DNA of 64,000 bases from Paracoccaceae bacterium (GTDB lineage Bacteria; Pseudomonadota; Alphaproteobacteria; Rhodobacterales; Rhodobacteraceae), in contig JAAFAB010000011.1 in the NCBI GenBank assembly GCA_018222585.1, forward strand, positions 1-64,000, read 5' to 3'. The notes beneath the pieces were generated by a model. It saw only the letters and a list, made by a program, of their open reading frames with translations. It searched no databases and was not told where the DNA came from. The position numbers were made by a program, and so were the translations under genes. Below, piece after piece: positions 23,614 through 37,137 of this stretch; position 1 is the first letter of the stretch, and each line of letters starts with the position of its first letter.

Positions 23614-23619
23614 GGTGAT

Positions 23620-23688: not shown

Positions 23689-23711
23689 GCAAACGGGGTA
23701 TCACCCCTACA

Positions 23712-23740
23712 CGCCGACCGGAACCGGCGCGTTCCACAGC
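23712..23740 (+). promoter_or_regulatory. ACCGGAAC stem-loop element, copy 1
   Basis: Stem CGCCG/CGGCG (5 bp, 23712-23729) around the invariant loop ACCGGAAC, then CCACAGC at 23734, AGGAG and the TTG start at 23755. It is one of seven such elements; see findings for the covariation argument. Confidence 0.6.
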
Positions 23741-23754
23741 AAAGGAGAAGAGAA

Positions 23755-24327
23755 TTGACCAACATCGTAACAGTGGACTTCAGGGGCGATACGCTCTTCG
23801 GGTTTCAGGAGGGTGAAAACACCTTCGTTGCCCTTCGTCCCATCGTTGAAGCAATGGGCATGGACTGGTCTGGGCAGCTGCAACGGGTGAAACGTGACCC
23901 GATCCTGTCGGAGGGTGTGGGTATCATGCCCACACCTTTCGGGCGTGGCGGCGACCAAGAGGCGGTTTGCATCAAGCTCGACCTGCTCAATGGCTGGCTC
24001 TTCACCATCGACACGAACCGGATCAAGGACGACTCGGTGCGCCAGAAGGTGCTGACCTACCAGCGCGAGTGCTACCGCGTCCTTCACGACCACTTTGCCG
24101 GAAAACATCGAGCAAGAGTGGAGGCGGAAGTTCCGGAAGAGATCGACGCCAGCGAAGGGGTCAAGCTCCGTCACGTGACTGAAGCTCGTCAGACCTTCGG
24201 AACGCAGGCTGCTGCGCAGATGTGGTTCCGCCTCGGGCTGCCCGTCGTTCCTGCCATGCTGCAGGATCCCCGCCAGCTCAACCTGCTGGACTACCAGGCC
24301 ATCGACACGAAAGGCGGTGAGGCATGA
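23755..24327 (+). CDS. Phage antirepressor-type protein (P22 AR N-like)
   Basis: 190 residues, TTG start with AGGAG seven bases upstream. Residues 12-110 (TFVALRPIVEAMGMDWSGQL, then LDLLNGWLFTIDTNRI and YQRECYRVLHDHF) match the N-terminal domain shared by P22 Ant-like antirepressors. The C-terminal 70 residues are unlike the usual Ant C-terminal domain. It probably interferes with a repressor or alters host gene control. It is the first plus-strand early gene, preceded by the operator array and by the ACCGGAAC element. Confidence 0.75.
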   Translation: MTNIVTVDFRGDTLFGFQEGENTFVALRPIVEAMGMDWSGQLQRVKRDPILSEGVGIMPTPFGRGGDQEAVCIKLDLLNGWLFTIDTNRIKDDSVRQKVLTYQRECYRVLHDHFAGKHRARVEAEVPEEIDASEGVKLRHVTEARQTFGTQAAAQMWFRLGLPVVPAMLQDPRQLNLLDYQAIDTKGGEA

Positions 24328-24503
24328 ACACCAACGACACCAACTCGGACGGCCGCCTCCACCTCCGCCTGCCTGATGGCTGGCGCGAGGCTCTCAAGGT
24401 CGAAGCAGCCCGCAACTACCGGAGCATGAACGGGGAAATCATCTTCCTTCTTCGTCCGGTGATGGATGAGATCCTGAAGCGGCAGGAAGGCGGTGAGGCA
24501 TGA
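24324..24503 (+). CDS. Arc-like RHH protein A (59 residues)
   Basis: Start ATG overlaps the antirepressor stop; the stop overlaps the next start. The sequence LHLRLPDGWREALKVEAARN, then YRSMNGEIIFLL is a ribbon-helix-helix dimer unit of Arc size. It is the first of two tandem, mutually similar RHH genes, probably a duplication that now allows heterodimers or two operator specificities. Confidence 0.8.
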   Translation: MNTNDTNSDGRLHLRLPDGWREALKVEAARNYRSMNGEIIFLLRPVMDEILKRQEGGEA

Positions 24504-24682
24504 GCCAGAACCGCACTCTGAAAGATCAATTCATGCTGCGCTTCCCTGATGGGATGCGAGAAGCCCTTAAGATCGAAGCTGCCCGCAACCATCGGAGCTT
24601 GAACAGCGAGATCCTTCACCGTCTCGAGTCGACGATGCAGGCCATTCTGGAAGAGGAGGAGAAGCGCCAGGAGGACACCTGA
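24500..24682 (+). CDS. Arc-like RHH protein B (60 residues)
   Basis: Tandem paralogue of the gene before it (shared RLPDG/RFPDG, REALK.EAARN and RS.N.EI). The DNA-contact strand FMLRFPDG is nearly the same as in the minus-strand RHH regulator at 23278 (FMLRLPDG), suggesting a related operator. The tail is acidic (EEEEKRQED). Translationally coupled to its partner. Confidence 0.8.
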   Translation: MSQNRTLKDQFMLRFPDGMREALKIEAARNHRSLNSEILHRLESTMQAILEEEEKRQEDT

Positions 24683-24753
24683 AACGAGCGAGGCCGCCGG
24701 GATAGCCCTCCCAAACGGCCTCTAAATGATCCACTCACATAAGGAGATCGCTC

Positions 24754-25119
24754 ATGAATGTAGCGACACGACGCGGCTTTATCAAGGCTCTGCCTGCTGC
24801 CGCGCTGACCATCCCCGCAATCACCCATGCCGCAGAGGGCGTTAGCCCCGTGCAGGTCATGTTTCACCGCTGGCAGAGCGCCACGCAGGAGCTTGAGGCC
24901 ACGCCCGACGATATGAGCGATGCCGAGAGCCTGCCCCTCGTGCAGCGTGTCTGCGCCCTGGCTGACGGCATCGTTGATGTGCCCTCGCAGTCGATGGCCG
25001 ATTTCGTCCTGAAGCTGGCCGCCCATACCGACTACGGCCAGCACGACCTGAGCAGCTGCCCCAGCTCCGAGGCTCTGGCCGACGAACTGCGCGCCCTGGT
25101 GGGGGAGATCACGGCATGA
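24754..25119 (+). CDS. Exported phage protein with Tat-type signal peptide
   Basis: 121 residues. The N-terminus TRRGFIKALPAAALTIPAITHA has the twin-arginine RRxFIK motif, a moderately hydrophobic core and a THA|AE-like cleavage site. The mature part is an acidic, helical domain of about 90 residues with no recognised family. A folded phage protein sent to the periplasm could act in exclusion or lysogenic conversion. Its stop overlaps the next gene (ATGA). The short AAGGAG upstream gives a good start. Confidence 0.65.
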   Translation: MNVATRRGFIKALPAAALTIPAITHAAEGVSPVQVMFHRWQSATQELEATPDDMSDAESLPLVQRVCALADGIVDVPSQSMADFVLKLAAHTDYGQHDLSSCPSSEALADELRALVGEITA

Positions 25120-25931
25120 GCGTCCAACTTAACCTGCCAGATGGTCAGCCCGTCACTATGTCCTCGCTTGAAATCGCAGACCTCTGCGGCAAGCGACACG
25201 ATCACGTGCTTAGGGACATTCGAAAGATGTTGATGGGCCTCTACGGTGACGAAGCGGTCAACGCTGGCCTCCCTGACCGAGACAAATATGAAGCCTTCTT
25301 TGACAAGATGGGCTGGGGCATCGATACCCCAGATTTGGGGAATGGTCGCGTGGAGGGCATCAAGGTGCGCCGCGACACCCGGGGTTTCGTCGCTGAAATC
25401 AGCTTGGACTACAACCACACCGTGACACTTATTGCGGGCTACAAGGTCAAGCTGCGCAAAGCGATCATCGATAAGTGGCAGCAGCTGGAGGAGAAAGAGG
25501 CGGCCCGCCCTGCCCAGCAGATCGACCTGAACGATCCCGCCCAGCTTCGCGGGCTGCTGCTGAACTACAGCGAGCGGGCGGAACAGCTTGAAAAGCGCGT
25601 GGAGGAGCTTTCCCACGCCGAGGAGGAGCTGGACCGCATTGCGCAGGCCGATGGCAGCTTGAACATCACCGAGGCCGCCAAGGCCCTGCAGGTGCGCCCC
25701 AAGGATCTGTTCGCGTGGCTGAGCCAGAACGGGTGGATCTACAAGCGCACCGGCAGCAGCACCTGGCTTGGCTACCAGAGCAAGACCGTAGCCGGTTTCC
25801 TTGAACACAAGGTGACCACCGTGCTCCGCGCCGATGGCAGCGAGAGGGTTTCTGAACAGGTGCGCGTTACCCCGCGCGGCCTGACCCGCCTCGCCCGCGT
25901 CGTGCCCTCTGCCGTTCGGGAGCTGATCTAA
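25116..25931 (+). CDS. Rha-family antirepressor with KilA-C/ANT domain
   Basis: 271 residues. Residues 14-125 (SSLEIADLCGKRHDHVLRDI, then GFVAEISLDYNHTVTLIAGY) are the pRha regulatory domain. A coiled-coil follows at 145-175. Residues about 180-270 (LNITEAAKALQVRPKDLFAW, then GWIYKR and RVTPRGLTRLA) are the antirepressor C-terminal DNA-binding-like domain. Such proteins relieve repression or interfere with host and phage development. The gene ends an ATGA-coupled pair with the Tat-signal protein. Confidence 0.85.
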   Translation: MSVQLNLPDGQPVTMSSLEIADLCGKRHDHVLRDIRKMLMGLYGDEAVNAGLPDRDKYEAFFDKMGWGIDTPDLGNGRVEGIKVRRDTRGFVAEISLDYNHTVTLIAGYKVKLRKAIIDKWQQLEEKEAARPAQQIDLNDPAQLRGLLLNYSERAEQLEKRVEELSHAEEELDRIAQADGSLNITEAAKALQVRPKDLFAWLSQNGWIYKRTGSSTWLGYQSKTVAGFLEHKVTTVLRADGSERVSEQVRVTPRGLTRLARVVPSAVRELI

Positions 25932-25960
25932 TGACCGCCTCTCACCTCACCACCACTGCG

Positions 25961-25995
25961 CCCGGGACCGGAACCCCGGGGCAACTCCACAGCGA
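25961..25995 (+). promoter_or_regulatory. ACCGGAAC stem-loop element, copy 2
   Basis: Stem CCCGGG/CCCGGG (6 bp, 25961-25980) with loop ACCGGAAC, then CCACAGCGA at 25987-25995, AAGGA and the ATG at 26008. Confidence 0.6.
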
Positions 25996-26007
25996 AGGAA
26001 TGAACCC

Positions 26008-26400
26008 ATGAAAATCCTGACCCATACCCCGACCGATGAAACCTGCGATCTCGACAACGCCACCGCGCTTTTCCGCTCCGCCGATATCAAGGTGCATGGC
26101 GACAAGGCGAAACCATGGGCATGGCAATTCGACGGCGGCGAGATTCACGACGCGGACGACGTAGAAGAGTCCACCGTCTGGCGCGTGCGCGGCGTCGACC
26201 ACGAAAGCCCAGAAGACGCGGAGGAGGCCTTGAACCGCGAGTTTTGGGCCATGTGCGAAGAGATCGGCGCGGACCATGTCGCCAAACTGAAGGCGGACCG
26301 GCCCATGCGGTCGGAAGAGTTCAACGCATGGACTGATGGGCTCTGCAAAGATGGCGAGATTTGCGACGACGCATATTCAGATTGCGGCGTTGATGACTGA
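26008..26400 (+). CDS. Acidic phage protein of unknown function
   Basis: 130 residues, very acidic, especially at the ends (CKDGEICDDAYSDCGVDD). Four cysteines occur, three near the C-terminus. The ATG follows AAGGA and the ACCGGAAC element. A DNA-mimic or inhibitor role is possible for such an acidic early protein, but nothing specific is recognised. Confidence 0.65.
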   Translation: MKILTHTPTDETCDLDNATALFRSADIKVHGDKAKPWAWQFDGGEIHDADDVEESTVWRVRGVDHESPEDAEEALNREFWAMCEEIGADHVAKLKADRPMRSEEFNAWTDGLCKDGEICDDAYSDCGVDD

Positions 26401-26411
26401 CCCACCGGTGA

Positions 26412-26490
26412 CCGCCCCCATGCGGGGCGGCATCCCGTGGGCCGTGCCTACGACGCCCGACCGGAACCGGGCGAGAGTGAACCACAGCGA
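26412..26490 (+). promoter_or_regulatory. GC hairpin plus ACCGGAAC stem-loop element, copy 3
   Basis: A 7-bp hairpin CCGCCCC/GGGGCGG (26412-26430) precedes the element. Its stem CGCCCG/CGGGCG (26454-26473) holds loop ACCGGAAC, followed by CCACAGCGA at 26482-26490, GAGAGGA and the start at 26506. Confidence 0.62.
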
Positions 26491-26505
26491 CGAGAGGACA
26501 AACGA

Positions 26506-26748
26506 ATGATGGTCAGCCTGCATGACACCAGGAGCGTGCGCGAGATCGCGGCTCAGGCCCGCACCTCACCCCATGATGATCTCAACCTTGATAGCGCCAA
26601 TGACGCTTGGATTATCCGGCGCACCTCTTGCGTGGCCGTGCGTCGGCAAGGCTTTTCGCACATCATTGGCAACGTCGCCCACCTGCACGGTGCCGCCCGC
26701 TATGCCGCCGCTTGCCGGATGGTGAACCAGTACCGGGGCCGGGTGTGA
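26506..26748 (+). CDS. Small early phage protein
   Basis: 80 residues from the ATG at 26506, after AGAGGA. It opens with an acidic helix and continues WIIRRTSCVAVRRQGFSHII and a HLHGAARYAAACRMVNQ helix. Its stop overlaps the start of the methyltransferase-like gene (TGATG). Coupling suggests a joint role, but no family is recognised. Confidence 0.6.
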   Translation: MMVSLHDTRSVREIAAQARTSPHDDLNLDSANDAWIIRRTSCVAVRRQGFSHIIGNVAHLHGAARYAAACRMVNQYRGRV

Positions 26749-27434
26749 TGCAGCTTGATTTCTCCTTCATCGCTGACCGCCCCTTGCGGGTGCTGGTGGC
26801 CTGCGAATGCTCCGGCATCGTGCGCCGCGCCTTCGACCGGCTGGGGCACGATGCATGGTCTTGCGACCTGAAGCCCGCCGAGGACGGCAGTAACCGCCAC
26901 ATCACCGGCGACGTGCGCGACCTGCTGGGCGATGGCTGGGACCTGCTGGCCGTCATGCACCCGCCCTGCACCCGGCTGTGCAACAGCGGCGTGCGATGGC
27001 TCACCACGCCGCCCCCGGGGCGGACCCTGGCCGAGATGTGGCAGGAGCTGGACGAGGGCGCCGCGCTCTTCTCCGACTGCTGGAATGCCCCGATTGACCG
27101 GATCGCCGTGGAAAACCCGGTGATGCACCGGCACGCGAAAGAGCGGATCCGCAACTTTCAGGAGCAGGCCCAGACGGTACAGCCGTGGCAGTTTGGCACC
27201 GACCCGAACGGCCCCGACAACGAGAAGAAGCGCACCTGCTTCTGGCTGAAGGGGCTGCCGCTGCTGAAGGCTACGGGCACCTTGGACGGCAGCACCGCGC
27301 GGGACAGCGTGCACAAGGCCAGCCCCGGGGCCAATCGGGCGACCGAGCGCAGCCGGTTCTTTCCGGGCATCGCGGACGCCATGGCGGCACAGTGGGGCGG
27401 CTACGCCCTCGAGGATGCACAGGCCGCCGCCTGA
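26748..27434 (+). CDS. Cytosine-C5 methyltransferase-like protein
   Basis: 228 residues. RVLVACECSGIVRRAF (about residues 13-28) resembles the SAM-binding motif I region; MHPPCT (about 70-75) supplies the PPC-like motif IV with the catalytic-type cysteine; ENPVMHRH (about 123-130) resembles motif VI (ENP/ENV). The protein is shorter than bacterial Dcm enzymes and lacks an evident target-recognition domain, like several phage proteins annotated only as MTase-like. Likely role: modification of phage DNA against restriction. Enzyme activity is not certain. Confidence 0.7.
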   Translation: MQLDFSFIADRPLRVLVACECSGIVRRAFDRLGHDAWSCDLKPAEDGSNRHITGDVRDLLGDGWDLLAVMHPPCTRLCNSGVRWLTTPPPGRTLAEMWQELDEGAALFSDCWNAPIDRIAVENPVMHRHAKERIRNFQEQAQTVQPWQFGTDPNGPDNEKKRTCFWLKGLPLLKATGTLDGSTARDSVHKASPGANRATERSRFFPGIADAMAAQWGGYALEDAQAAA

Positions 27435-27445
27435 CGCATCGCCTG

Positions 27446-27516
27446 CGGCCCTGCGGGGCCGTAGCACCATGCGCCAGCATGACGGGCCACCGGAACGGCT
27501 CGGACACCCACAGCGA
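27446..27516 (+). promoter_or_regulatory. GC hairpin plus ACCGGAAC stem-loop element, copy 4
   Basis: Hairpin CGGCCC-TGCG-GGGCCG (27446-27461), then element stem CGGGCC/GGCTCG (27483-27502, six pairs including one G-U) around ACCGGAAC, CCACAGCGA at 27508-27516, an AGGAAAGGAAGG ribosome site and ATG at 27532. Confidence 0.62.
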
Positions 27517-27531
27517 GAGGAAAGGAAGGCA

Positions 27532-27978
27532 ATGGATTTCAGCGTTTGTTGGCAAATCGACATCGCGGCGGACACGCCCGAAGAGGCGGCGCGCTTGGCA
27601 CGGGCACACCAGACCAGAGCGGGCACCCGCGCCACCGTTTTCGAGGTCATCGGCGACGACGGGTCGCATTGGATCGACCTGACCGAACTCAGCGAGAAGG
27701 ATGAACCCATGGGAAACTTTGCAGAGCATCAGACGGAACAGGATGCCATCACCGCCAGGTATGAAGCGGAGGCCACCGAGGCAGGGACGCGGGGCGGCGC
27801 GCTCTCGGCGCAGGAACTTGCGACGATCCTTGCCGCGCTTCGCTTCTACCAGCAGTGCGGCATGGGCAACCCCGAGAACCGCAGCGACCCCATCCATGAC
27901 ATCGCCACCAACGGCGGCACCGTCCTCGACTTGGACGGCGACGAGATCGACCAGCTTTGCGAGAAGCTGAACGCCTGA
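27532..27978 (+). CDS. Early phage protein of unknown function
   Basis: 148 residues. The N-terminal part (CWQIDIAADTPEEAARLARA, then FEVIGDDGSHWIDLTEL) resembles small ferredoxin-like folds seen in many phage proteins. The C-terminal half is helical and acidic (LSAQELATILAALRFYQQ). The two halves may be separate domains. Start chosen at 27532 because of the purine-rich ribosome site. Confidence 0.65.
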   Translation: MDFSVCWQIDIAADTPEEAARLARAHQTRAGTRATVFEVIGDDGSHWIDLTELSEKDEPMGNFAEHQTEQDAITARYEAEATEAGTRGGALSAQELATILAALRFYQQCGMGNPENRSDPIHDIATNGGTVLDLDGDEIDQLCEKLNA

Positions 27979-27991
27979 CGCACCGGCAGAG

Positions 27992-28045
27992 CGGCCCCGA
28001 GCTGGGCCGTTCCCCCGTGCGACCGGAACCGCACGACCACAGCGA
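27992..28045 (+). promoter_or_regulatory. GC hairpin plus ACCGGAAC stem-loop element, copy 5
   Basis: Hairpin CGGCCC/GGGCCG (27992-28009), then stem CGTGCG/CGCACG (28016-28035) around ACCGGAAC, CCACAGCGA at 28037-28045, AAAGGA and ATG at 28062. Confidence 0.62.
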
Positions 28046-28061
28046 GAAAGGAACTCTCCCT

Positions 28062-28310
28062 ATGATCAAGCTCTATCTCTTCGCCCGGGGCCGCTGGTCC
28101 CCTGTCCACTACGTCGCCGCTATCACCGCGACCCCTGCCCTGTCCGTGCTGCTGTGCCAGGAACCGCGCGACCCGGCGCCCGGCGTGACGATGGACGCCC
28201 TGCGCTCGATCCTGCCCGAAGCCTGCGCCTCGCTGCCCGGCGTGACCGGGTATCGCGTCGAGCAGGGCGATTTCGCCCACGAGGAGGAGCTTGCAGGCGC
28301 GGCGGCGTGA
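28062..28310 (+). CDS. Small early phage protein
   Basis: 82 residues beginning MIKLYLFARGRWSPVHYVAA, with a proline-rich middle and an acidic end. The ATG follows AAAGGA with 12 bases spacing. No family is recognised. It belongs to the same series of early genes each headed by the ACCGGAAC element. Confidence 0.55.
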   Translation: MIKLYLFARGRWSPVHYVAAITATPALSVLLCQEPRDPAPGVTMDALRSILPEACASLPGVTGYRVEQGDFAHEEELAGAAA

Positions 28311-28325
28311 TGTAGGGATGAAGGT

Positions 28326-28385
28326 GCGCCCCTGCCCTACCCCTTGCGGGGCCGGAACGGGCAGAGGGCGCGTGTCCCACAGCGA
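28326..28385 (+). promoter_or_regulatory. ACCGGAAC-type element, copy 6, with nested hairpin
   Basis: Outer stem GCGCCC+CTGCCC pairs with GGGCAG+GGGCGC across a single bulged A (28326-28337 with 28359-28371). The loop reads TA, then a nested hairpin CCCC-TTGC-GGGG (28340-28351), then CCGGAAC. CCACAGCGA follows at 28377-28385. The next start (28475) is further away than in other copies. Confidence 0.6.
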
Positions 28386-28474
28386 ACAGAAAGCAACCGT
28401 CCAACGGATCCAGAGCAGCAGCCCAGAACAGTAAGGAGGCGTCTCTGGTGAGACACCGAGATAGGTAAGACCCC

Positions 28475-28780
28475 ATGGAAACTTTGGCAATGCAGTCGAC
28501 GCAGGAAATCCGCGATATGACCCCGGAGGCCCGGCTGGCCTTTCTAGATCAGCTGGCCAGCCAGGTTTTCGAGGGTGACAGCTTGGTGACCCGGCTGGCA
28601 GATGCCCTGGACGTGAGCCGCCAGAGCTGGAGCCACTGGCACAGGAACCCCGACAAGCTGCCCCTGTGGCCGATCCTGCTGCTGCAGGAATGGGCCCTGC
28701 GGAAGCGCCTCAGCGCGGATCTCGGCCGCCTGCCCGGCGCCGGCGCTCGTTCTCAAACCGACGCCCCCGGCGACCAGTAA
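28475..28780 (+). CDS. Phage HTH-like protein
   Basis: 101 residues. The centre (LVTRLADALDVSRQSWSHWH, about residues 37-56) reads as a helix-turn-helix similar to Cro/YdaS-type domains, followed by a PLWPILLLQEWALRKRL helix. It ends in a basic/proline tail that overlaps, convergently, the 3' end of the next minus-strand gene by 71 bases. Possibly a regulator of the convergent replication operon. Confidence 0.6.
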   Translation: METLAMQSTQEIRDMTPEARLAFLDQLASQVFEGDSLVTRLADALDVSRQSWSHWHRNPDKLPLWPILLLQEWALRKRLSADLGRLPGAGARSQTDAPGDQ

Positions 28781-29207
28781 GGGCGCGCGTGTCGCAGATC
28801 ATGCTCTGGGTCTTCCTCGGCAGGTCAGCCGGGCGCAGCACCAGGTCGAAACCGAGGGCGTTGGCCCAATAGATGAACGTGTCGAGGTTCGGCACCCGGC
28901 CATCCCTGTCGCGCTCGATCTTGGCCAGGTGATCCTTGGTCAGCCCGGCGGCCTCTTCCACCTCAACGATGCTCAGCGCCAGGTCCTCGCGGCGATCCCG
29001 CAGGATCTGGCGCGCGTCATCGAAACTTCCGACAGAATAGTTGCTCTGCACCCGGTCGTTGATCCGCGGCGGCACGTCGCCCTTGGCGCGGACCCGGGCA
29101 CGCATTCCGCAGCCGTCGACCGGGCACCGCACGATGCACGAGTCCTCGTGAACGGCCTCGATCACCCAGCCTGCCTCTTGGGCCTTTTGCAGGAACTTCT
29201 GGTCCAT
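28710..29207 (-). CDS. XRE-family regulator with N-terminal Cys motif
   Basis: 165 residues. Residues 25-34 contain CIVRCPVDGCG, three cysteines as in a small zinc ribbon. Residues about 70-125 (LALSIVEVEEAAGLTKDHLAKIE, split as usual for XRE HTH, then VPNLDTFIYWANALGFDLVL) are the DNA-binding domain, and the tail is very basic. It is the last gene of the minus-strand replication operon and converges with the gene at 28475. The role is regulatory by fold only. Confidence 0.7.
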   Translation of the reverse strand: MDQKFLQKAQEAGWVIEAVHEDSCIVRCPVDGCGMRARVRAKGDVPPRINDRVQSNYSVGSFDDARQILRDRREDLALSIVEVEEAAGLTKDHLAKIERDRDGRVPNLDTFIYWANALGFDLVLRPADLPRKTQSMICDTRALTGRRGRRFENERRRRAGGRDPR

Positions 29208-29219
29208 CTGGTTCCTTTC

Positions 29220-29549
29220 TCAGCTCTGGTCTCGGCGCCTGTTTTCCAGCGCTCGTCGCCAGCCTTTCGGCGGGGGCCAAGAAACTCCCCATTCAGCCAG
29301 CTGCGCCCTTGTCCAGCCGCCGCCCGGGGTCTTGGCCTGCTCGATCTCTTCAGGGGAAGGGATATCAACCGCATTCTTCCCAGATGCCGGCGTGTGACGG
29401 ATGTCCAGAACCTTCACCACGCCGTCAGGAAGCACCTCGACCTCGCACTCGGTGATCATCTCGTCATGACCGTAGTCGACCCCGACGAAGACTGGATTGC
29501 CGTCCGGCACCAGTTGCGCCACCGCACCATCCCTCTTGTCGCCCATCAC
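29220..29549 (-). CDS. Phage protein with C-terminal WGVxWPPPKGW motif
   Basis: 109 residues. A beta-rich first half (VFVGVDYGHDEMITECEVEV) is followed by IPSPEEIEQAK and GGGWTRAQLAEWGVSWPPPK, a short helix-turn plus Trp/Pro motif that recurs at the C-terminus of small phage proteins. The start overlaps the upstream stop. Function unknown. Confidence 0.6.
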   Translation of the reverse strand: MMGDKRDGAVAQLVPDGNPVFVGVDYGHDEMITECEVEVLPDGVVKVLDIRHTPASGKNAVDIPSPEEIEQAKTPGGGWTRAQLAEWGVSWPPPKGWRRALENRRRDQS

Positions 29550-29830
29550 CGCGCCCTCACCGTCTCATGCTCGACCAGGCCCTTCAGCTGCGCCTCCCGA
29601 TACCCCATCCGAAGGGACTTCACCGGCCAACGCTTGCCGGCCGGATGCTTGGCCGTCGCGGTCAGGTTCACCAGCTCGAACCGGGCGCTCGTGTCCTTCG
29701 GCATCAGCAGCGAGATCTCGGCCACGCTGACCCCGAAGATCTCGGCGATGTCCTCGGCGTCGTGATCCAGGGCCAGCTCGGCCACGCGGCGGCGGTTCGG
29801 CTTCGATTTTCCAAATGCCATACGGTTCAC
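29546..29830 (-). CDS. Small HTH-like phage protein
   Basis: 94 residues from a GTG at 29830 that overlaps the helicase stop (GTGA) and has AGGAG eight bases upstream; an ATG at 29821 is the alternative. DIAEIFGVSVAEISLLM (about residues 27-43) resembles a short HTH. The rest is basic. It probably works with the replication genes upstream. Confidence 0.6.
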   Translation of the reverse strand: MNRMAFGKSKPNRRRVAELALDHDAEDIAEIFGVSVAEISLLMPKDTSARFELVNLTATAKHPAGKRWPVKSLRMGYREAQLKGLVEHETVRAR

Positions 29831-31233: not shown

Positions 31234-31388
31234 TTGGCTTTCGTCCCTTTCGCTGTGGATTTGGCGATCAAGGCGCGAACCAGCCGCGTCTCGATCTGGA
31301 TCTTCTCCCCCAGCTCACCGCCGACCTGTTCCGAGAGGCCTTCGATGACGCGCAGATACGTGTCGATCTTGGGGAGGAGGTTGCTCAA
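31230..31388 (-). CDS. 52-residue helical protein between initiator and helicase
   Basis: TTG start overlapping the initiator stop (TTGA); its own stop overlaps the helicase start. The product SNLLPKIDTYLRVIEGLSEQ, then IQIETRLVRALIAKS is a charged helix ending in a Lys-rich tail. Coupling on both sides between two replication genes suggests it is real and may assist helicase loading. TTG with a weak ribosome site lowers confidence. Confidence 0.55.
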   Translation of the reverse strand: MSNLLPKIDTYLRVIEGLSEQVGGELGEKIQIETRLVRALIAKSTAKGTKAK

Positions 31389-32191
31389 GAGATCACCGTC
31401 TGCCAGCTGGGCGGCCGGAACTTGGCGGCCCGGTCCTGCGGGGTGATCTCTTCCGGGAGCCGCACGCCGCGCAGCTCCTCGTCCGCCCATCGCTGGGCGT
31501 TCAGCCACGTCGCCGGGTGCGCGATGAACTGCGCCTCCGTGCCCTTCTGCCGGCAGAGGGCCGCATAGCGCCTGGCCCCGTCGATGATCTCCTGCGGCAG
31601 CGCGCTCTTCACGGCCTTGGCCCATGCCTTCTCGGCGTTCCCTCGGGCGATCTTCCGTGGGTAGGCTTCGTAGAAGTCGGGGAACCTGTCCTCGGGCTTC
31701 GGCGCCGCTTCGGCGGGCTGGTCATTGTCCGAGAAAAGATCGATCTCGCGCGCTTGCGCGCTTACTGGTTCTTTTACGGGTTCTCTTACAGGTTTATCTC
31801 CAGTGGGCTGGAGATGGTTGGGGCCCTGATTTGGAGATGGTTGGGGCCCTGATTTGGAGATGGTGCCAACTCCATTTTCTGGAGTTTGTTCGTTGCTGAT
31901 TTCGCGATCGCACCCCAAGATGTAGTAGGTCGGACCCTTCGTACCGTCCTGGTTTCTGGTCCGCCTGCGGGCGATCAAGTTGGCCTTCTCAAGATCGTTG
32001 AGCGCGTTGTTGAGCCCGCCATTCGAAAGGCCGGTCACCCGCATCAGGGACGCCTGGCTGGGGAAGCAGGCCGTATCCGCATCCCGCTTCGAATTGTGCG
32101 CATCGCACAGGTGGAACAGAACGCGGAACGCACCCGCCTTGATCTTGTCGGCGGGAATGTCCGCCAGCCAGCTAGAAGCCTTATGACTCAT
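31385..32191 (-). CDS. Phage replication initiator/loader (winged-helix plus DnaT-like)
   Basis: 268 residues. Residues about 12-95 (FRVLFHLCDAHNS, SQASLMRVTGLSNGGLNNAL, NDLEKANLIARRR) form a winged helix as in phage replication protein O-type proteins. A low-complexity Gln/Pro/Asn linker (about 105-140) follows. Residues about 165-225 (DFYEAYPRKIARGNAEKAWA, then AHPATWLNAQRW) are the small C-terminal domain common in phage primosomal proteins. It should bind the phage origin and bring in the DnaB helicase encoded downstream. Confidence 0.8.
   Translation of the reverse strand: MSHKASSWLADIPADKIKAGAFRVLFHLCDAHNSKRDADTACFPSQASLMRVTGLSNGGLNNALNDLEKANLIARRRTRNQDGTKGPTYYILGCDREISNEQTPENGVGTISKSGPQPSPNQGPNHLQPTGDKPVREPVKEPVSAQAREIDLFSDNDQPAEAAPKPEDRFPDFYEAYPRKIARGNAEKAWAKAVKSALPQEIIDGARRYAALCRQKGTEAQFIAHPATWLNAQRWADEELRGVRLPEEITPQDRAAKFRPPSWQTVIS
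31810..31864 (-). repeat. Tandem 23-base repeat in the initiator linker
   Basis: Two full and one partial copies of GGAGATGGTTGGGGCCCTGATTT (described here on the plus strand, unit split by length: GGAGATGGTTGG and GGCCCTGATTT). The period is not a multiple of three, so each copy is read in a different frame and codes a different peptide of the disordered linker. Confidence 0.6.
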
Positions 32192-32357
32192 CGCTCGCCT
32201 CCTTCTTGAAAATCTGCTCGATCACGCCCTCGGCGCGCATCTGGGAGACCACCTGGCGGATCTCCTCCACCGGCCACTCCAGCGCGACCGCGATATCCTC
32301 GACGCCCTCGCCCCGGGCGATCAGGTCGCGCACCAGCTGCGGGTCCACATCGGTCAT
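32181..32357 (-). CDS. Small winged-helix/HTH protein
   Basis: 58 residues from the ATG at 32357, overlapping the stop of the gene before it (ATGA). VRDLIARGEGVEDIAVALEW, then VEEIRQVVSQMRAEG reads as two HTH helices with a wing-like end. It lies between the PAPS-reductase-like gene and the initiator; probably a DNA-binding accessory or regulator. Confidence 0.6.
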   Translation of the reverse strand: MTDVDPQLVRDLIARGEGVEDIAVALEWPVEEIRQVVSQMRAEGVIEQIFKKEASDES

Positions 32358-33190
32358 CCCGTGCACTCCCCATCATCTTTCTGGCAAAGAACGCCCTCTG
32401 TTGAGAGGGCCCAATCCCCCTGCCTTTCCATGAACTCGCGTAGCTCTTTCCGCGAGTATCGCTTGGAGAACCTGGCCGCCGTCCCGCTGGTAAGGCTGGA
32501 AGCAAGGGCCTCCATCTCTTCCCACCAAGCAGCGCGCGCGCGATGGTCCCGAGTGAAGGCTGCGACATTCGCCTCGCTCTTAAGAAAGCAGCCGTCGCAG
32601 TTCCCCAGCCAGCAGTTTCCACCAACGTTCGGCAGATCGAGATCGAAGGGCTGGCGGCGCCAGAAGGCCGCGACATCACGCTTGGAAACGCCAGCCGCAA
32701 CCAGCGGCCGCCAGACCGTCCAGCGATCCTTGGGCGGGTTCGTGCTTCGGTGTGCCTCGTCCGCCCGGATACCTACGCAATTGGTCCAGTAGTCCCAGCC
32801 GAGGTTGCGCAGATATCTCTTCGCGGTCCGCACTTTCAGCTCCGTCGTGCAGAAACGGCTTTGCTGGTTTGGCAGGAACTTGCGCTTGCGGATCAGCGCC
32901 TCGAACGGCTCACCGTTCATGCTGGCGCCTTGACGCCCAACGATCTCGAAAAACGGCGCCTCGACGCGGTATTCGAGCCATGTGACCATGACACCCCATC
33001 GCTGCGCGACCTCGGCCACGAAGTCGAGTGTCTGGGGCATTTCGCGCCCCGTGTTCTGGAATGTTACCTCGACGCGATCCGGGAGATCTCCATTCGCCTC
33101 CAAGATCTGGTGCAGCATGTAGGCGCTGGTACGTCCCCCGCTGAAGGCGATCTGGACGTTGCCATCTGGCAGCAAATAGTGATCAGCCAT
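32354..33190 (-). CDS. PAPS reductase/DndC-family ATP-pyrophosphatase-like protein
   Basis: 278 residues from the ATG at 33190. The PP-loop SGGRTSAYML near residue 17 and the conserved EVTFQNTGREMPQTLDFV, CTTELKVRTAKRYL and GIRADEAHR segments are those of the phosphoadenosine-phosphosulfate-reductase family. A cysteine pair-rich NCWLGNCDGCFLK follows (about 207-219). Phage members are common, but their reaction is unsettled: candidates are sulfur transfer to nucleic acid or nucleotide, or host assimilation. Placement beside a RuvC-like resolvase in the replication operon favours nucleic-acid work. Confidence 0.8.
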   Translation of the reverse strand: MADHYLLPDGNVQIAFSGGRTSAYMLHQILEANGDLPDRVEVTFQNTGREMPQTLDFVAEVAQRWGVMVTWLEYRVEAPFFEIVGRQGASMNGEPFEALIRKRKFLPNQQSRFCTTELKVRTAKRYLRNLGWDYWTNCVGIRADEAHRSTNPPKDRWTVWRPLVAAGVSKRDVAAFWRRQPFDLDLPNVGGNCWLGNCDGCFLKSEANVAAFTRDHRARAAWWEEMEALASSLTSGTAARFSKRYSRKELREFMERQGDWALSTEGVLCQKDDGECTG

Positions 33191-33713
33191 TGAACAGCCC
33201 CCCGAGCGGCACGCTCTGGGCCACGCGCAGGGTCGCGCAGCCGTAATCCCAGATCGCCATGGCGTCGGCTTCGTCATCGCTTCGAGGCTGCCAGCCGATC
33301 TGGTTGCACCGGGCGATCACGCGCTGCTTGATCTCCAACCGGGAATCCTTGGCGCTGAGGCTGGGGAAGTCCCTGGCCGTCAGGTGCTTGCCCAAGAAGT
33401 GCTTGCGGACGGACTGGATCCGCGCCTCCTGCACCAGCACCCCCTCGTCGGCCACGGTGCCGGTCACGCACGCGGCCAGCCCGATCAGGAACGCATTGGC
33501 ATGGGCCCCGCCGATAGCTGCCTCGAAAAAAACGTGATCCGGCTCATACTTGCGCACCAGGTGGCGCGTCATCTGAATGGCCTTGGCGAACCGGGCGGCT
33601 TGCGTGGCACCCCTTTTGCCAAGAACAATCGAGGTGGCCCGCGGAGTTTTCCCCGCGAGCCCAAATGCCACACCAGTGTTTGTGGCGATATCGAACGCCA
33701 TGACCCGGGTCAC
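33183..33713 (-). CDS. RuvC-like Holliday junction resolvase
   Basis: 176 residues. The RNase-H-fold acidic residues are visible: Asp8 in MAFDIATNTG, Glu64 in VFFEAAIGG, and Asp146/147/150 in SDDEADAMAIWDYG. Phage RuvC-type resolvases of this size cut branched DNA before packaging or during recombination. The start overlaps the stop of the acidic protein gene upstream. Confidence 0.82.
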   Translation of the reverse strand: MTRVMAFDIATNTGVAFGLAGKTPRATSIVLGKRGATQAARFAKAIQMTRHLVRKYEPDHVFFEAAIGGAHANAFLIGLAACVTGTVADEGVLVQEARIQSVRKHFLGKHLTARDFPSLSAKDSRLEIKQRVIARCNQIGWQPRSDDEADAMAIWDYGCATLRVAQSVPLGGLFNG

Positions 33714-34201
33714 TCGGCCGCCCGCGTCATCGGCGTGACGTTCGAGGGTTCATCCTCGTCGAGGTCAGCCAGGTTCGCCTCGAAGTCGGCGGCATCCTCG
33801 GCCAGCTCCTCGTCGCCCATCGGCACCACGTCGTCGCCCTCGTCGGGTGCGGCATTCGCGGTCTCGTCCTCGCTCTCGTAGTCAGCGGGATCGCCCAGAT
33901 CCATTTCCCCGCTGCCCTGGCCCTGGACATGGGCCTCGACCATCGGCAGGCCCTTCTTCAGGGAACGGATGATGTCCATCGCCTTGGTCTGGCCGTTCTT
34001 CTTCGGCAGCTTCTTCACGATGCTCTTCAGCCAGCCGAACGCCTGGCCGTTCATGCCGGTCTCGTCCAGGAACTCGGTCAGCTTGGCCGCGCTCTCGCCG
34101 GCATCGCTCTGCCGCTCGTACTCCTCGTTCGACCGGGCCTGGATTTGGCCCAGAAGTTGGTCATGCCCGAATTCGGGCTCGCTGTTCGTCGGGTCTTCCA
34201 T
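33710..34201 (-). CDS. Acidic phage protein in replication operon
   Basis: 163 residues. The N-terminal half is mixed-charge and helical with a Lys-rich patch (WLKSIVKKLPKKNGQTKAMD). The C-terminal half is strongly acidic (DLDEDEP, DEGDDVVPMGDEELAEDAAD). The layout resembles single-strand-binding or DNA-mimic accessory proteins with acidic tails, but no family is recognised. Good AAAGGAGCTGACA leader before the ATG. Confidence 0.6.
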   Translation of the reverse strand: MEDPTNSEPEFGHDQLLGQIQARSNEEYERQSDAGESAAKLTEFLDETGMNGQAFGWLKSIVKKLPKKNGQTKAMDIIRSLKKGLPMVEAHVQGQGSGEMDLGDPADYESEDETANAAPDEGDDVVPMGDEELAEDAADFEANLADLDEDEPSNVTPMTRAAE

Positions 34202-34203
34202 TG

Positions 34204-34428
34204 TCAGCTCCTTTCGCTGGGGGGGTGTGCCGGATCTCGCTCCAGCACTGGGCGCCTGGTGACGGCATTGCGGGTTTCCACGTCCTCACCGAGCCTCGGC
34301 CCGATGCCGTCGTCGCAGCCTCACGGGGCAGCTGAGAAAGTACCGAGGTCGGTATTGCTTTTTTCCGGGAACCTGATTTCGTCGCCCCAGGAGGATCCGG
34401 GGGGGCGGTATTCAAGCGGCGATCGCAT
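34204..34428 (-). pseudogene. Small reading frame interrupted by one in-frame TGA
   Basis: ATG at 34428 gives 35 codons (LEYRPPGSSWGDEIRFPEKS, then ..TFSAAP) to a TGA at 34323-34321. The same frame then continues 38 codons (GCDDGIGPRLGEDVETRNAV, then ..RPVLERDPAHPPSERS) to a stop at 34204 just before the next gene. Both halves look protein-like and fill the gap between two genes exactly. It may be one gene with a nonsense mutation, or a 35-residue gene followed by chance sequence. Confidence 0.4.
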
Positions 34429-34436
34429 CGCTCAGA

Positions 34437-34685
34437 TCACTTTTTTTGATCCGTAACGTTGCAATCCGCATTGGGGATAACCACGTCACTGTCACCGGCG
34501 CGAAGTCGTGCAAGGTGTTCATAGGTAAGGGCTTTTCCAAGCTCGCTTGCCGCTTTCACGAGTTTCACGTCCTGCCCTGCGGGGATGCTGCCGCGCGCTT
34601 TCCAGGCGCGCACGGTCACGTCTTTCTCCCCGAGGTCACGGGCCATTTGAGCTACCGACGGCCAAAGTTCGAACACAATTTGCAT
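34437..34685 (-). CDS. Cro-like HTH protein
   Basis: 82 residues. WPSVAQMARDLGEKDVTVRA, then WKARGSIPAG is the YdaS/Cro-type helix-turn-helix in which the recognition helix is followed by W.+RG.IP. It is divergent from the S24 repressor across a 93-base spacer containing an operator-like site. That arrangement is the classical Cro/CI switch and makes this the lytic-side repressor. Confidence 0.8.
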   Translation of the reverse strand: MQIVFELWPSVAQMARDLGEKDVTVRAWKARGSIPAGQDVKLVKAASELGKALTYEHLARLRAGDSDVVIPNADCNVTDQKK

Positions 34686-34709
34686 GGCTCTTCCTCATCA
34701 TGGATTTGG

Positions 34710-34723
34710 TGCAAAATGTATTG
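34710..34723. promoter_or_regulatory. Operator-like site between cro-like and S24 repressor genes
   Basis: TGCAAAATGTATTG. The same word, with few changes, occurs reversed at 36210-36226 and 36245-36261 (TGCAAAAGGTATCG and TGCAATAGGTATCG), at the promoter divergent from the triple-HTH gene. A minus-strand TTGACT lies nearby (about 34734-34739) and could be the -35 of the cro promoter. Confidence 0.5.
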
Positions 34724-34778
34724 CGAAGAGATTCCAGTCAATACCAAAGGCAACAATGCTTTCTGTACTGTCAGCGGC

Positions 34779-35366
34779 ATGGCAGAATCAGAAAAGCACA
34801 CCCGTCTACGTGAAGCTCGGCTGAAAGCGGGCTTTCGGTCGGCCTCAGAAGCCGCCAGAAGGTTTGGATGGACGGACAGCGCCTACCGGCATCACGAGAA
34901 CGGCACGCGAGGTTTCAGCGCCAAGACAGCCGAGAGGTATGCCCGGGCCTACCGCGTCCCAGTCGACTGGATTGTATTCGGCAACGGATCGTCCAAGAAG
35001 AGACCCGTTCCACTTGTAGGCATAGTGGGTGCTGGAGCGGAGGTTTTCCCGATAGACGACGGCGGTTCTCTCGACGAGATCGATCCGATGCCAGGGTTGG
35101 GTCCCGAGGCCGTAGCAGTCCGCGTGGTCGGCGACAGCATGTACCCGAGGTATTTTGACGGGGACATACTTGTTTATGACCAACACGTTAGCATGAGGGA
35201 TGCTCACGGACAGGAGTGCGTCGTGGCTCTTGCGGACGGTCGTAGACTGATCAAAGTGGTTCGCCTTAGAAACGGCGTCGTGTCTCTTGAGTCGTACAAC
35301 CACCAGCCCATCGAAGATGCTGATATCGAGTGGGCTGCCCCCGTCCTCTGGGTGCGACGGAGTTAA
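34779..35366 (+). CDS. CI-type repressor, S24/LexA-like peptidase
   Basis: 195 residues. Residues 8-66 form an XRE-type HTH (SASEAARRFGWTDSAYRHHE). Residues 75-195 are the S24 domain, with GIVGAGAE as the likely autocleavage region, Ser120 in GDSMYPRYFDG and Lys159 in RRLIKVV as the catalytic dyad. The protein should hold lysogeny and be inactivated by RecA-stimulated self-cleavage, making the prophage SOS-inducible. It ends with TAA directly against the stop of the triple-HTH gene. No close ribosome site is seen before the ATG, so leaderless or alternative initiation is possible. Confidence 0.88.
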   Translation: MAESEKHTRLREARLKAGFRSASEAARRFGWTDSAYRHHENGTRGFSAKTAERYARAYRVPVDWIVFGNGSSKKRPVPLVGIVGAGAEVFPIDDGGSLDEIDPMPGLGPEAVAVRVVGDSMYPRYFDGDILVYDQHVSMRDAHGQECVVALADGRRLIKVVRLRNGVVSLESYNHQPIEDADIEWAAPVLWVRRS

Positions 35367-36104
35367 CTACTCCTCGCCACCCAGAAGGTGATGGATCGAG
35401 ATCCCGTGCACCCGCCAGCACCGATAGAGCTGGTCGACCGTCAGCATCCTCTTGCCCTGCTCGACCTGCGAATAGTTGGATTTCGCAATGCCGATCGAGT
35501 TGGCGAAGTCCACCATGCTCATGCCAGCCGCAATGCGCGCCCTCGCGAGCCGTCGAGCCATATCTTTCCGCTCAACTTGAGCGCCGGCGCCATCTCGCCA
35601 ACTGCGCCACGCCTCTCTCAACCCTTCGGCAAGTCCCCCATCCTCTCCGAAATACAGAAAGTCGAGAGAAAGCCCAAAGGCATCTCTGATCGCGATAGCG
35701 CCATCGAGGGACAAGCGAAATTCTCCACTTTCCCAGTTATTTAGCGCTGCTCTTTTCAGGCCAATTCGCGCCGCATACTGCTCTTGCGTGAGCCCTTCAA
35801 GCGATCGGTGCCATTTGATACGATCCGCGGCGCAGGAGGAAAATCCGCCCGCAGGGGGAAGCTTGCGCCCCATGCCCTCTGCCCTCGACGGCTTGAGCAG
35901 GTCGGCCGCAGAAATCTCCAGGGCCCCTGCAATCTTCGCGATGGTATTGAGCCTCGGGCTTTCAGTTCGCTGCTTGAGAATGTCATAGACGGCGGTCTCA
36001 TTCAGACCTGCCTTCCTGCTGAGTTGGGCCATGCCAAGCCCCCGGCGCCTCATTTGCTCCTTCAGGTTGGTGGAAAAAGTCCCAGAGATATCAGTTTGTT
36101 CCAT
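35367..36104 (-). CDS. Triple helix-turn-helix regulator
   Basis: 245 residues from the ATG at 36104 (GGAGG eight bases upstream; a more distal ATG overlaps that site). It contains three successive XRE-type HTH domains: about 12-71 (LKEQMRRRGLGMAQLSRKAG), 94-153 (TQEQYAARIGLKRAALNNWE) and 185-242 (MSMVDFANSIGIAKSNYSQV). There is no peptidase domain. The gene is convergent with and abuts the S24 repressor without a single intervening base. It is probably a second immunity regulator acting on its own divergent promoter. Confidence 0.85.
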   Translation of the reverse strand: MEQTDISGTFSTNLKEQMRRRGLGMAQLSRKAGLNETAVYDILKQRTESPRLNTIAKIAGALEISAADLLKPSRAEGMGRKLPPAGGFSSCAADRIKWHRSLEGLTQEQYAARIGLKRAALNNWESGEFRLSLDGAIAIRDAFGLSLDFLYFGEDGGLAEGLREAWRSWRDGAGAQVERKDMARRLARARIAAGMSMVDFANSIGIAKSNYSQVEQGKRMLTVDQLYRCWRVHGISIHHLLGGEE

Positions 36105-36209
36105 GCCGTCTTCCTCCATGGGTTATCGCATTACATCCGGCCGAAGACCTCGGGACCCATCCTGGCACCCTACAGGCGCAGAACGCGGTTCCGAAATTTT
36201 CTCTGCATC

Positions 36210-36261
36210 CGATACCTTTTGCATTGACACGTCGCAACAACATTCGATACCTATTGCATCG
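36210..36261 (+). promoter_or_regulatory. Operator pair overlapping a sigma70-type promoter
   Basis: Two near-identical 17-base dyads, CGATACCTTTTGCATTG (36210-36226) and CGATACCTATTGCATCG (36245-36261). A TTGACA -35 (36224-36229) lies at the end of the first and a weak -10 TACCTA (36248-36253, 18-base spacing) inside the second. A bound repressor would cover both promoter boxes of the plus-strand gene at 36284. A related site lies in the cro/CI spacer. Confidence 0.6.
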
Positions 36262-36283
36262 AGGCAGCCCAAATGAGGCACAT

Positions 36284-36595
36284 ATGCAGACGAAACCCAC
36301 ACATTCCGCGCCTTTTGCCGACGAGCTTTTCAGCGTCGATCCGTGGACCTGCATGGTCGAGGAGGTCGGCACCAAGGAGAAGCCCAAGCGGGTCTTCTAC
36401 GCGATCCACCAGGAGCGCGAGGAGACGCACGAGCTGGACCTCAGCACCTACCGCGACCCGTCCCCCGAAACCTTCCGCCAGCTGATCGCCCTCGGCTTCC
36501 CCAAGCGCGTCACTGGCTCCCCGCTGACCGCCGACCAGATCGAACTGATGTGGTGGCGCCGGTTCGGCATCAAGCCCGAGGAGAAAGCCGCATGA
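36284..36595 (+). CDS. Phage protein under repressor control
   Basis: 103 residues from the ATG at 36284. The sequence has a WTCMVEEVGTKEKPKRVFYA beta-rich start, a HELDLSTYRDPSPETFRQLI helix and a TADQIELMWWRRFGI end. It is the first gene downstream of the operator pair, hence probably expressed on induction. The stop overlaps the next start. No known family. Confidence 0.65.
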   Translation: MQTKPTHSAPFADELFSVDPWTCMVEEVGTKEKPKRVFYAIHQEREETHELDLSTYRDPSPETFRQLIALGFPKRVTGSPLTADQIELMWWRRFGIKPEEKAA

Positions 36596-36870
36596 GGGAT
36601 CACGTCACCGCCTACAAGCCCCCGCTGGAGCGAGCACGCCATGTCCTCGGCAACCCGGGCGCGCACCCGTCGCACAAGATCCGCAACGCGGCGCTGTACC
36701 TGGCGAACAACTCGGCCGACGACGTCGAGACCCTGATGGCCCGGGCCCTCGTGACGGTTGCGGATCGCAGCCCCGGGCCGCGCATCGGTTTCTCGAAGCG
36801 GGCCTGCGCGACGATCACCCTGCTTGCTCTGGCGCTTGGGACCTGCGCCGGGGTGCTGCTGATCCCCTGA
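36592..36870 (+). CDS. Small phage protein with C-terminal membrane anchor
   Basis: 92 residues. A soluble helical part (LERARHVLGNPG, then VETLMARALVTVADR) is followed by a single C-terminal hydrophobic helix (ATITLLALALGTCAGVLLIP). Coupled to the preceding gene (ATGA). A tail-anchored inhibitor or exclusion protein is conceivable; no family is recognised. Confidence 0.6.
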   Translation: MRDHVTAYKPPLERARHVLGNPGAHPSHKIRNAALYLANNSADDVETLMARALVTVADRSPGPRIGFSKRACATITLLALALGTCAGVLLIP

Positions 36871-36998
36871 TTTCGAATAGCGCGCGTTGTCCCCTGCTCC
36901 CCCGCAGTCGCGCGCTGTCACCCCGGCCGGCGTCCCCACTCCTTCCCAGCCGGCCGGGGCAAGAGGTTCCCCGCACCTGACACACACAGCCTCGTAGC

Positions 36999-37025
36999 GG
37001 GGGCACCGCCGAGGGCGCCTTTTTC
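36999..37025 (+). terminator. Possible rho-independent terminator
   Basis: An imperfect GC-rich hairpin (GGGGGCACC...GGGCGCC) ends in TTTTT after the membrane-anchored gene. The stem has a mismatch, so strength is uncertain. Confidence 0.4.
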
Positions 37026-37069
37026 CAACCCGATGTCATGGCGTCCTCGGCACCACCACTCACGCGATC

Positions 37070-37137
37070 GGCCGACCGGAACCGGCCTCACCAGGGCGCC
37101 CGCTCCCACAGCAGAACCGCGGGCGCCCACCCACAGC
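37070..37137 (+). promoter_or_regulatory. ACCGGAAC stem-loop element, copy 7, plus second hairpin
   Basis: Stem GGCCG/CGGCC (37070-37087) around ACCGGAAC. Downstream, a perfect 10-bp hairpin GGGCGCCCGC/GCGGGCGCCC (37094-37103, 37119-37128) holds CCACAGC in its 15-base loop, and a second CCACAGC follows at 37131-37137 before GGAGG and the ATG at 37154. Confidence 0.6.

Follow-up and report, generated by a model that had tools for sequence, protein, structure and literature searches.

Which function do repeated hairpin leaders serve in front of the genes of a single temperate phage? The window analysed here, a stretch of 64,000 nt from a Paracoccaceae bacterium, carries seven such leaders. An initial annotation described them as covarying stems around one constant loop, followed by a conserved box and a start codon, and suggested that a protein reads the loop, either for antitermination or for translational control. 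It called the genes behind the leaders 'early', a designation that derives from their position only.

Seven leaders in front of start codons

All seven sites are indeed present on the plus strand (Table 1), each with a paired stem around CCGGAAC and a start codon 25–103 nt downstream. An 8-nt loop with ACCGGAAC, previously ascribed to every copy, was found in six of them. Copy 6 is a nested variant, in which TA and an inner hairpin (CCCC-TTGC-GGGG) stand between CTGCCC and CCGGAAC, so that no 8-nt loop is formed; its outer stem, including one bulged A, is longer than the stem formerly noted at 28332 and spans 28326–28371. The box CCACAGCRA, likewise thought to be universal, is exact in six of the seven, while copy 7 reads CCACAGCAG.

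Table 1 Leaders and associated features in the window (coordinates in nt)
Feature	Position	Strand	Structure or property	Box	Start or gene
Leader hairpin 1	23712-23729	+	CGCCG-ACCGGAAC-CGGCG	CCACAGCAA, 23734-23742	TTG 23755; product P22_AR_N antirepressor-like
Leader hairpin 2	25961-25980	+	CCCGGG-ACCGGAAC-CCCGGG	25987-25995	ATG 26008
Leader hairpin 3	26454-26473	+	CGCCCG-ACCGGAAC-CGGGCG	26482-26490	ATG 26506
Leader hairpin 4	27483-27502	+	CGGGCC-ACCGGAAC-GGCTCG, one G-U	27508-27516	ATG 27532
Leader hairpin 5	28016-28035	+	CGTGCG-ACCGGAAC-CGCACG	28037-28045	ATG 28062
Leader 6, nested	28326-28371	+	outer stem GCGCCC-CTGCCC / GGGCAG-A-GGGCGC; interior: inner hairpin CCCC-TTGC-GGGG, strand CCGGAAC	28377-28385	ATG 28475
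Small protein behind leader 6	28475-28780	+	weakly HTH/repressor-like		
Candidate loop reader	28710-29207	minus	C-x4-C motif, HTH, arginine-rich C-terminal tail		
Non-leader CCACAGCRA	31250	minus			precedes DnaB
Leader hairpin 7	37070-37087	+	GGCCG-ACCGGAAC-CGGCC		probable start ATG 37154
10-bp hairpin after leader 7	37094-37128	+	loop contains CCACAGCAG at 37106-37114		
Non-leader CCACAGCRA	46067				precedes integrase

The exact sequence ACCGGAAC occurs eight times in the 64 kb (shuffled sequences: mean 1.82, maximum 5), six times as part of a leader. The first 48 kb contain 14 copies of CCGGAAC, 11 on the plus and 3 on the minus strand, all of which were examined for flanking stems. A stem of at least 5 bp was found at six sites, every one a leader, and the seven non-leader copies can form zero or one pair each; copy 6 scored 0 in this test because of its nested structure. 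CCACAGCRA was found eight times in the whole window, and both occurrences outside the leaders lie just upstream of starts and lack a hairpin. In the leaders read, the ribosome-site context differs by phage, being CCACAGCRA in the window, CCACARAGA-like in Pseudooceanicola endophyticus (G013) and loose at locus L197. It is doubtful that CCACAGCRA constitutes a second specific element; it may be a mere C/A-rich lead to the Shine-Dalgarno sequence (SD).

The distance from hairpin end to start is 25–32 nt for copies 1–5, 103 nt for copy 6 and 66 nt for copy 7, in which the further 10-bp hairpin sits in between. Over the copies measured in the window, G013, L197 and L296, 19 of 21 lie 17–32 nt from the start (window 25–32 nt in 5/7; G013 23–32, n = 6; L197 20–27, n = 3; L296 17–25, n = 5). 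Within the operon 23755–28780, leaders precede six of the seven non-overlapping starts and none of the four overlapping ones, and the start at 24754 has a different hairpin in place of a leader. The leader stem itself excludes the SD, and in copies 1 and 2 weak 3-bp pairing reaches it.

Pairing is kept while stems change

For 16 hairpins from three phages, 95.8% of 96 stem cells were paired and 35 of the 96 had changed on both sides. The pairing score of 0.960 compares with 0.204 ± 0.058 in shuffles (0 of 500 as high) and at most 0.212 on sliding. The earlier proposal of a functional RNA structure with compensatory change is thus upheld, and it is extended by changes between orthologous sites of different phages, namely G-C to A-U in slot 4 and C-G to U-A in slot 7. 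In slot 6, the outer stems compensate and the inner CCCC/GGGG becomes CCTC/GAGG. Slot 3 of G013 contains a single C-A mismatch. The stability of single-leader folds was not unusual (z +0.69 to −2.87 in 13 folds), and the loop strand was not fully open in two of the 13 minimum-energy folds, both from L197. Judged by covariation in sequence, pairing is strongly supported and the leader element is an RNA hairpin.

Loops differ between related phages

The hairpins are not confined to the prophage in the window, as relatives carry them as well; within the searched genomes, they belong to this phage lineage only. In Oceanicola sp. S124 the loop is identical to that of the window. G013 has CCGAAAC in all nine leaders found (the scan pattern YCGRAAC listed nine places, all of them leaders), L197 has four leaders with CGGAAAC (four pattern matches versus none in the reversed control), two of which come after promoter-like sequence, and L296 has five start-associated hairpins with the unrelated loop CACCAC. 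As copies were found with loop-like patterns, leaders with other loops could be missed in G013 and L197. An exception to one loop per phage is L301, whose two copies differ (CCGGAAC and CCGAAAC).

When 214 loci were scanned for families of start-associated hairpins, five of them yielded five-gene families (the window, three with G013 leaders, and L296), compared to at most three in three shifted controls; it overlooked S124 and L197, though both have copies. At L191–L193, the scan detected no start-associated family above three. Some paired leaders of L198, L291 and L298 contain CACCACA, hints only, with no family at the scan threshold.

Comparison with Rfam 15 revealed no family matching the leaders: the whole window gave a single match at the gathering threshold, a tRNA, and 23600–28500 gave none at E up to 1, leader 7 being covered by the whole-window search only. 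Covariance searches of 394 genomes of the family recovered the window's own genome and, in other genera, nothing convincing. RNA model R1 matched 21 of these at E up to 0.1, the own genome included, and each of the 20 other matches was inspected; model R2 matched five, the own and four weak ones that were inspected as well. The R1 matches at L151, L154, L155, L159 and L165 were discarded as one recurring, probably coding chromosomal stretch with CGACCGGATCCGCGC. A search of the genus matched 4 of 22 genomes, among them G009, whose single, weak match resembles the recurring stretch and was likewise discarded. A possible further member is found in G333 (L153), where a fitting hairpin with box and start lies upstream of a chromosomal dehydrogenase-like gene. 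The exact pattern hit at least 120 stretches in viral contigs; among the matches listed, none combined a stem of at least 5 bp with the box, and two had a 4-bp stem. In relatives, it matched 20 of 100 genomes including the own, and a set was present only in G003 and the own genome. Regarding the phage itself, the terminase-like protein was found in one of 394 family genomes (its own), the terminase protein names had no family support in Pfam, NCBIfam and PHROGs, two proteins found no match in phage records, and a related-locus search with the 37142 protein returned none.

Conserved leaders, unrelated genes

Between the window and S124, the 70 nt upstream of the genes in slots 2, 3 and 7 are 93, 90 and 96% identical, versus 65, 58 and 61% for the first 120 nt of the genes; the baseline for unrelated stretches is 59.8 ± 2.9. 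No blastp match was obtained between the respective genes, and by this sequence comparison they are unrelated.

The small protein behind leader 6 has blastp relatives in S124, G013, L197 and L198 (25%). The nested slot-6 structure lies upstream of it in S124, G013 and L197 and, by sequence, also in L292, L293, L295 and L301; in L296, the likely counterpart lacks a hairpin immediately upstream. The opposite strand encodes an HTH protein with arginine-rich tail (28710–29207; predicted structure with mean pLDDT 68.2, tail blocks 44–54). That it is the loop reader is a guess, which we offer as a lead only. A similar tail (RRGRRISQLRRR) occurs in L291, where no CCGRAAC leader was found, and this speaks against a link between tail and loop, the basis of which is a few phages related to one another.

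Known systems and alternative explanations

The nearest described kind are the Start-Associated Sequences (SAS) and extended SAS (ESAS) of Cluster K mycobacteriophages (PMC3203893), and motifs like them occur in Microbacterium clusters EC, EF and EG (PMC7302621); yet they differ from the leaders. They resemble the leaders in being numerous within a phage and in sitting immediately before start codons, and the ESAS consensus varies by subcluster. However, ESAS combine conserved inverted-repeat arms with a variable spacer, whereas the leaders do the opposite, with a constant loop on a covarying stem, and the ESAS authors reported little support for mRNA hairpins (PMC3203893). The SAS 13-mer 5'-GGGATAGGAGCCC was absent from the ribosome sites of the leaders read in the window, G013 and L197.

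Action at translation initiation regions, as proposed for the leaders, is a trait of phage proteins such as T4 RegA and gp32, for which we know of no family of hairpins with constant loop and variable stem. The GGA that window and L197 loops contain resembles CsrA/RsmA sites, but is missing from CCGAAAC and CACCAC; with GGA absent from 9/9 G013 loops, all CCGAAAC, we dismissed a CsrA/RsmA site. In nut/put antitermination, a nascent-RNA hairpin lets RNA polymerase pass terminators between modules, as with lambda nut boxB, a hairpin with a 5–6 nt loop, or HK022 put, an RNA that acts alone on polymerase. The leaders share with boxB a short constant-loop hairpin and loop classes across related phages, and the arginine-rich tail at 28710–29207 might be a counterpart of N; GC-rich hairpins upstream of several leaders and the promoter-like sequence before two L197 leaders would fit as well. 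Yet the loop is larger (8 nt in 6/7 copies, nested in the seventh), and the sites precede single cistrons mid-operon, near the starts of many cistrons and at a spacing set to the start. Within 190 nt around each of the seven leaders, the best match to boxA had 2, 3, 4, 3, 3, 4 and 3 mismatches, while 500 random windows gave 2 with 0, 9 with 1, 109 with 2, 326 with 3 and 54 with 4. Antitermination is thus unsupported, as no boxA rises above background, the loop measures 8 nt and the sites are those of single cistrons within an operon; we consider it improbable.

About equally improbable is an element for mRNA processing or stability, which would be cut by a nuclease or bound by a host factor that protects the transcript. 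Mostly intercistronic sites 5' of each unit and the long stem of slot 6 would suit it, but L197 leaders also lie shortly downstream of promoter-like sequence, stems of 5–6 bp are short for a typical RNase III substrate, and a conserved host nuclease would not predict different loops among phages of one host genus. An antisense RNA kissing the loop would likewise require that the loop be constant and change at all sites together; we give this still less credence, as all seven non-leader anti-loop copies of the window phage fall inside ORFs and neither G013 nor L197 showed one at a corresponding position. Right after three leaders, the window and S124 part in gene content, which might suggest a joint for gene-cassette recombination whose recognised form is folded single-stranded DNA. 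However, the stem of a slot is kept while genes change, as ordinary recombination within conserved flanks would also produce, strand and start spacing are maintained, and inspection by eye showed no integron-like core site, making such a joint very unlikely. Least credible are functionless repeats copied from one ancestral leader: the leaders are alike and could have spread with the operon, but their stems change with pairing intact, and within a phage the loop stays the same.

Proposed function

We think it probable, on sequence grounds, that the leaders form a family of start-proximal operators acting at the level of translation in one temperate-phage lineage. Each hairpin, a constant 7–8 nt loop on an arbitrary stem placed mostly 17–32 nt upstream of the start codon, would be a shared cis element on the mRNA. 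A trans-acting, probably phage-encoded factor may recognise the loop at all sites and thereby set translation (or fate) of the downstream cistrons, and a gene landing behind a leader would become a member of the regulated set. A loop-reading factor is proposed because the loop differs among phages, yet is common to the copies found within most. This pattern lends the suggested loop-reading protein indirect support. Between the two roles originally offered, the start-proximal position favours translational control. More tentatively, the leaders could constitute a phage-wide post-transcriptional regulon, in which an RNA-binding HTH/Arg-tail protein reads the loop, with loop and tail changing together between phages (CCGGAAC, CCGAAAC, CGGAAAC, CACCAC).

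Repeated start-associated sequences in phages were known earlier, their mechanism lacking. With the pairing supported and the loop differing between close relatives, coevolution of loop and reader becomes directly testable here, and a set of loop-reader pairs would give a new orthogonal RNA-tag toolkit. If such an exchangeable code were true, each phage of this lineage, which inhabits marine bacteria, would possess a private translational operator, which new genes join once they land behind a leader. The leaders would also account for the exchange of small accessory genes that nevertheless stay under common control.

Structure and covariation of the leaders

All seven leaders reported in the initial annotation, i.e. 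start-proximal hairpins of the window prophage, are present, with details corrected: copy 6 is nested and lacks the 8-nt loop, and the box (CCACAGCRA, between hairpin and start) of copy 7 is inexact. Searched de novo for hairpins with constant loop and variable stem, the window gave ACCGGAAC with six stems at the top rank, while 8-nt loops never exceeded three stems in 20 resampled sequences. The pattern CCGGAAC-N5-30-CCACAGC occurs eight times in forward and never in reverse orientation in the window's own genome, and seven of the eight matches are the leaders; as a pattern alone it is weak, since a reversed control gives 16 matches.

For covariation, we aligned 16 plain hairpins from the window (6), Pseudooceanicola endophyticus (G013; 8) and locus L197 (2), omitting nested slot-6 copies, an L197 hairpin whose loop measures 9 nt, and those of Oceanicola sp. 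S124, which repeat the copies of the window. The proposal that pairing is kept while stems differ was borne out: pairing amounts to 95.8%, and both sides changed in 35 of 96 cells, with such changes at all six pairs. The window hairpins alone are 94.4% paired (11/36 cells changed on both sides). Shuffle tests are inflated by the relatedness of the sequences; slid controls reached at most 50% pairing. The expected stem with open loop strand appeared in 11 of 13 single folds, both exceptions being L197 leaders.

Table: Features of the prophage and of compared loci
Feature	Position	Strand	Remarks
Structural genes		minus	major head, head-tail adaptor and tail matches
Terminase-like protein	19068-21536	minus	name by reading
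Terminase-like protein	22190-22753	minus	name by reading
CCTTAGG/CCTAAGG sites	23622, 23657, 23680		shortly upstream of leader 1, flanked by divergent genes
First plus-strand run	23.7-28.8 kb	plus	P22_AR_N antirepressor, Arc-like proteins, Rha/KilAC protein
Six-codon reading frame	28448-28468		own Shine-Dalgarno sequence (SD); ends just before 28475 start
HTH protein, Arg-rich tail	28710-29207	minus	candidate loop reader
Replication genes	28.7-34.7 kb	minus	include DnaB match and RuvC-like protein
Second plus-strand run	36.2 kb to integrase	plus	RecE- and RecT-like matches
Perfect 10-bp hairpin	37094-37128		loop holds CCACAGC; after leader 7
phrog_874 protein	40143-40769		function unassigned
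RecT-like annealing protein	41731-42660	plus	C-terminal stretch matches Rmf/CrpP family (NCBIfam above cut-off, Pfam RMF just below)
Lone chromosomal hairpin	L153 (genome G333), 1501-1538		loop, box and SD as in leaders
Stem with inner GGG/CCC helix	L191 (Paracoccus phage Pyei1), 34667-34767		upstream of Rha/KilAC gene

Genomic surroundings

Leaders 1-6 belong to the first plus-strand run, which also holds a DNA methyltransferase match and small proteins of no assigned function, and leader 7 to the second. The CCTTAGG/CCTAAGG trio, without further sites in the first 48 kb, possibly represents operators. The Pyei1 stem resembles the hairpin preceding window position 24754. Neither terminase-like protein matched a family in Pfam, NCBIfam or PHROGs. 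The longer gene carries an in-frame insert of ~307 residues starting with Cys (CLSAETEF...), which from its sequence looks like an intein; Pfam and NCBIfam gave no match for this insert gene, and the G013 and L198 homologues are insert-free.

Leaders in related phages

S124 (locus L149) and G013 belong to the same genus as the window's genome. S124 has slots 2-7 with the window's loop; the G013 phage, homologous to that of the window (blocks of ~67-90% nucleotide identity), has nine leaders, all with CCGAAAC and two in tandem at the operon start. L197, which has a terminase-like protein match of 70%, carries CGGAAAC in its four leaders, with the loop extended 5' by 0-2 bases, a type shared by L292, L293 and L295. 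L301 combines one CCGGAAC and one CCGAAAC leader, and L198 shows CACCACA, not CCGRAAC. At slot 6 the nested form is kept with strand CCGGAAC (window), CCGAAAC (G013, L301) or CGGAAAC (L197); outer stems differ, and the inner hairpins are CCCC-TTGC-GGGG, CCTC-TTGC-GAGG or CCCC-ATAA-GGGG. The L153 hairpin precedes an iron-alcohol-dehydrogenase-like gene (name by reading) and is either a chance occurrence or a captured leader.

A de novo scan of ten loci first detected L296. A stricter scan of 214 loci >4 kb, some representing the same phage, grouped hairpins ≤75 nt upstream of SD-bearing starts by loop hexamer and required distinct stems. Five-gene families were found in five loci: the window, L296 (loop CACCAC) and three loci bearing the leaders of G013. 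Four further strand-loci had three-gene families. In the shifted controls, three windows in all, the counts were 6, 5 and 8 strand-loci with at most three genes each. The scan is conservative, since it missed S124 and L197 despite leaders seen by direct inspection.

Genes behind the leaders and proposed mode of action

Between window and S124, the 70 nt preceding the genes of slots 2, 3 and 7 are 93, 90 and 96% identical, whereas the genes themselves reach 65, 58 and 61% over their first 120 nt (unrelated stretches: 59.8 ± 2.9) without blastp match. Leaders kept before unrelated genes are thus tied to the slot, not to the gene. At slots 4 and 5 both leader and gene are conserved; at slot 6, identity over the 70 nt upstream of the start falls to background level (63%), since the sequences diverge after the box. 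In S124 the position of the window's six-codon frame is also occupied by a frame of six codons, though another one, so translation may restart at 28475.

Hairpin-to-start spacing is 17-32 nt in 19 of 21 measured copies. Together with the start-proximal position, this points to translation initiation as the level of action. A reader in trans, i.e. a loop-binding factor, is suggested by the fact that phages differ in their loops. To look for candidates, window proteins were compared with those of S124, G013, L197 and L198. Most proteins common to window, S124, G013 and L197 had a relative in L198 too; the phrog_874 protein and part of the 27532 protein lacked one in the incomplete L198 record. 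The HTH protein ends in RGRRFENERRRR in window and S124, its counterparts in RGRRFQNERDRRR (G013), RQRRFRLERERR (L197) and RSKRFTAEGRRRNER (L301), and those of L296, L298 and L198 in other basic tails. The link between tail and loop is weakened by L291, which carries RRGRRISQLRRR and in which no CCGRAAC leader was found. Two PDB sequence matches below 0.01 were obtained for the HTH protein, and each lies in its HTH region.

The leaders match no Rfam family, and no description of them was found among the matches listed from open-access PMC literature, although an earlier one may exist. The nearest elements described in the papers listed are SAS/ESAS of Cluster K mycobacteriophages (PMC3203893) and start-associated motifs of Microbacterium phages (PMC7302621). 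We file the leaders as start-associated phage elements, with the covarying RNA hairpin and the phage-specific loop as new features.
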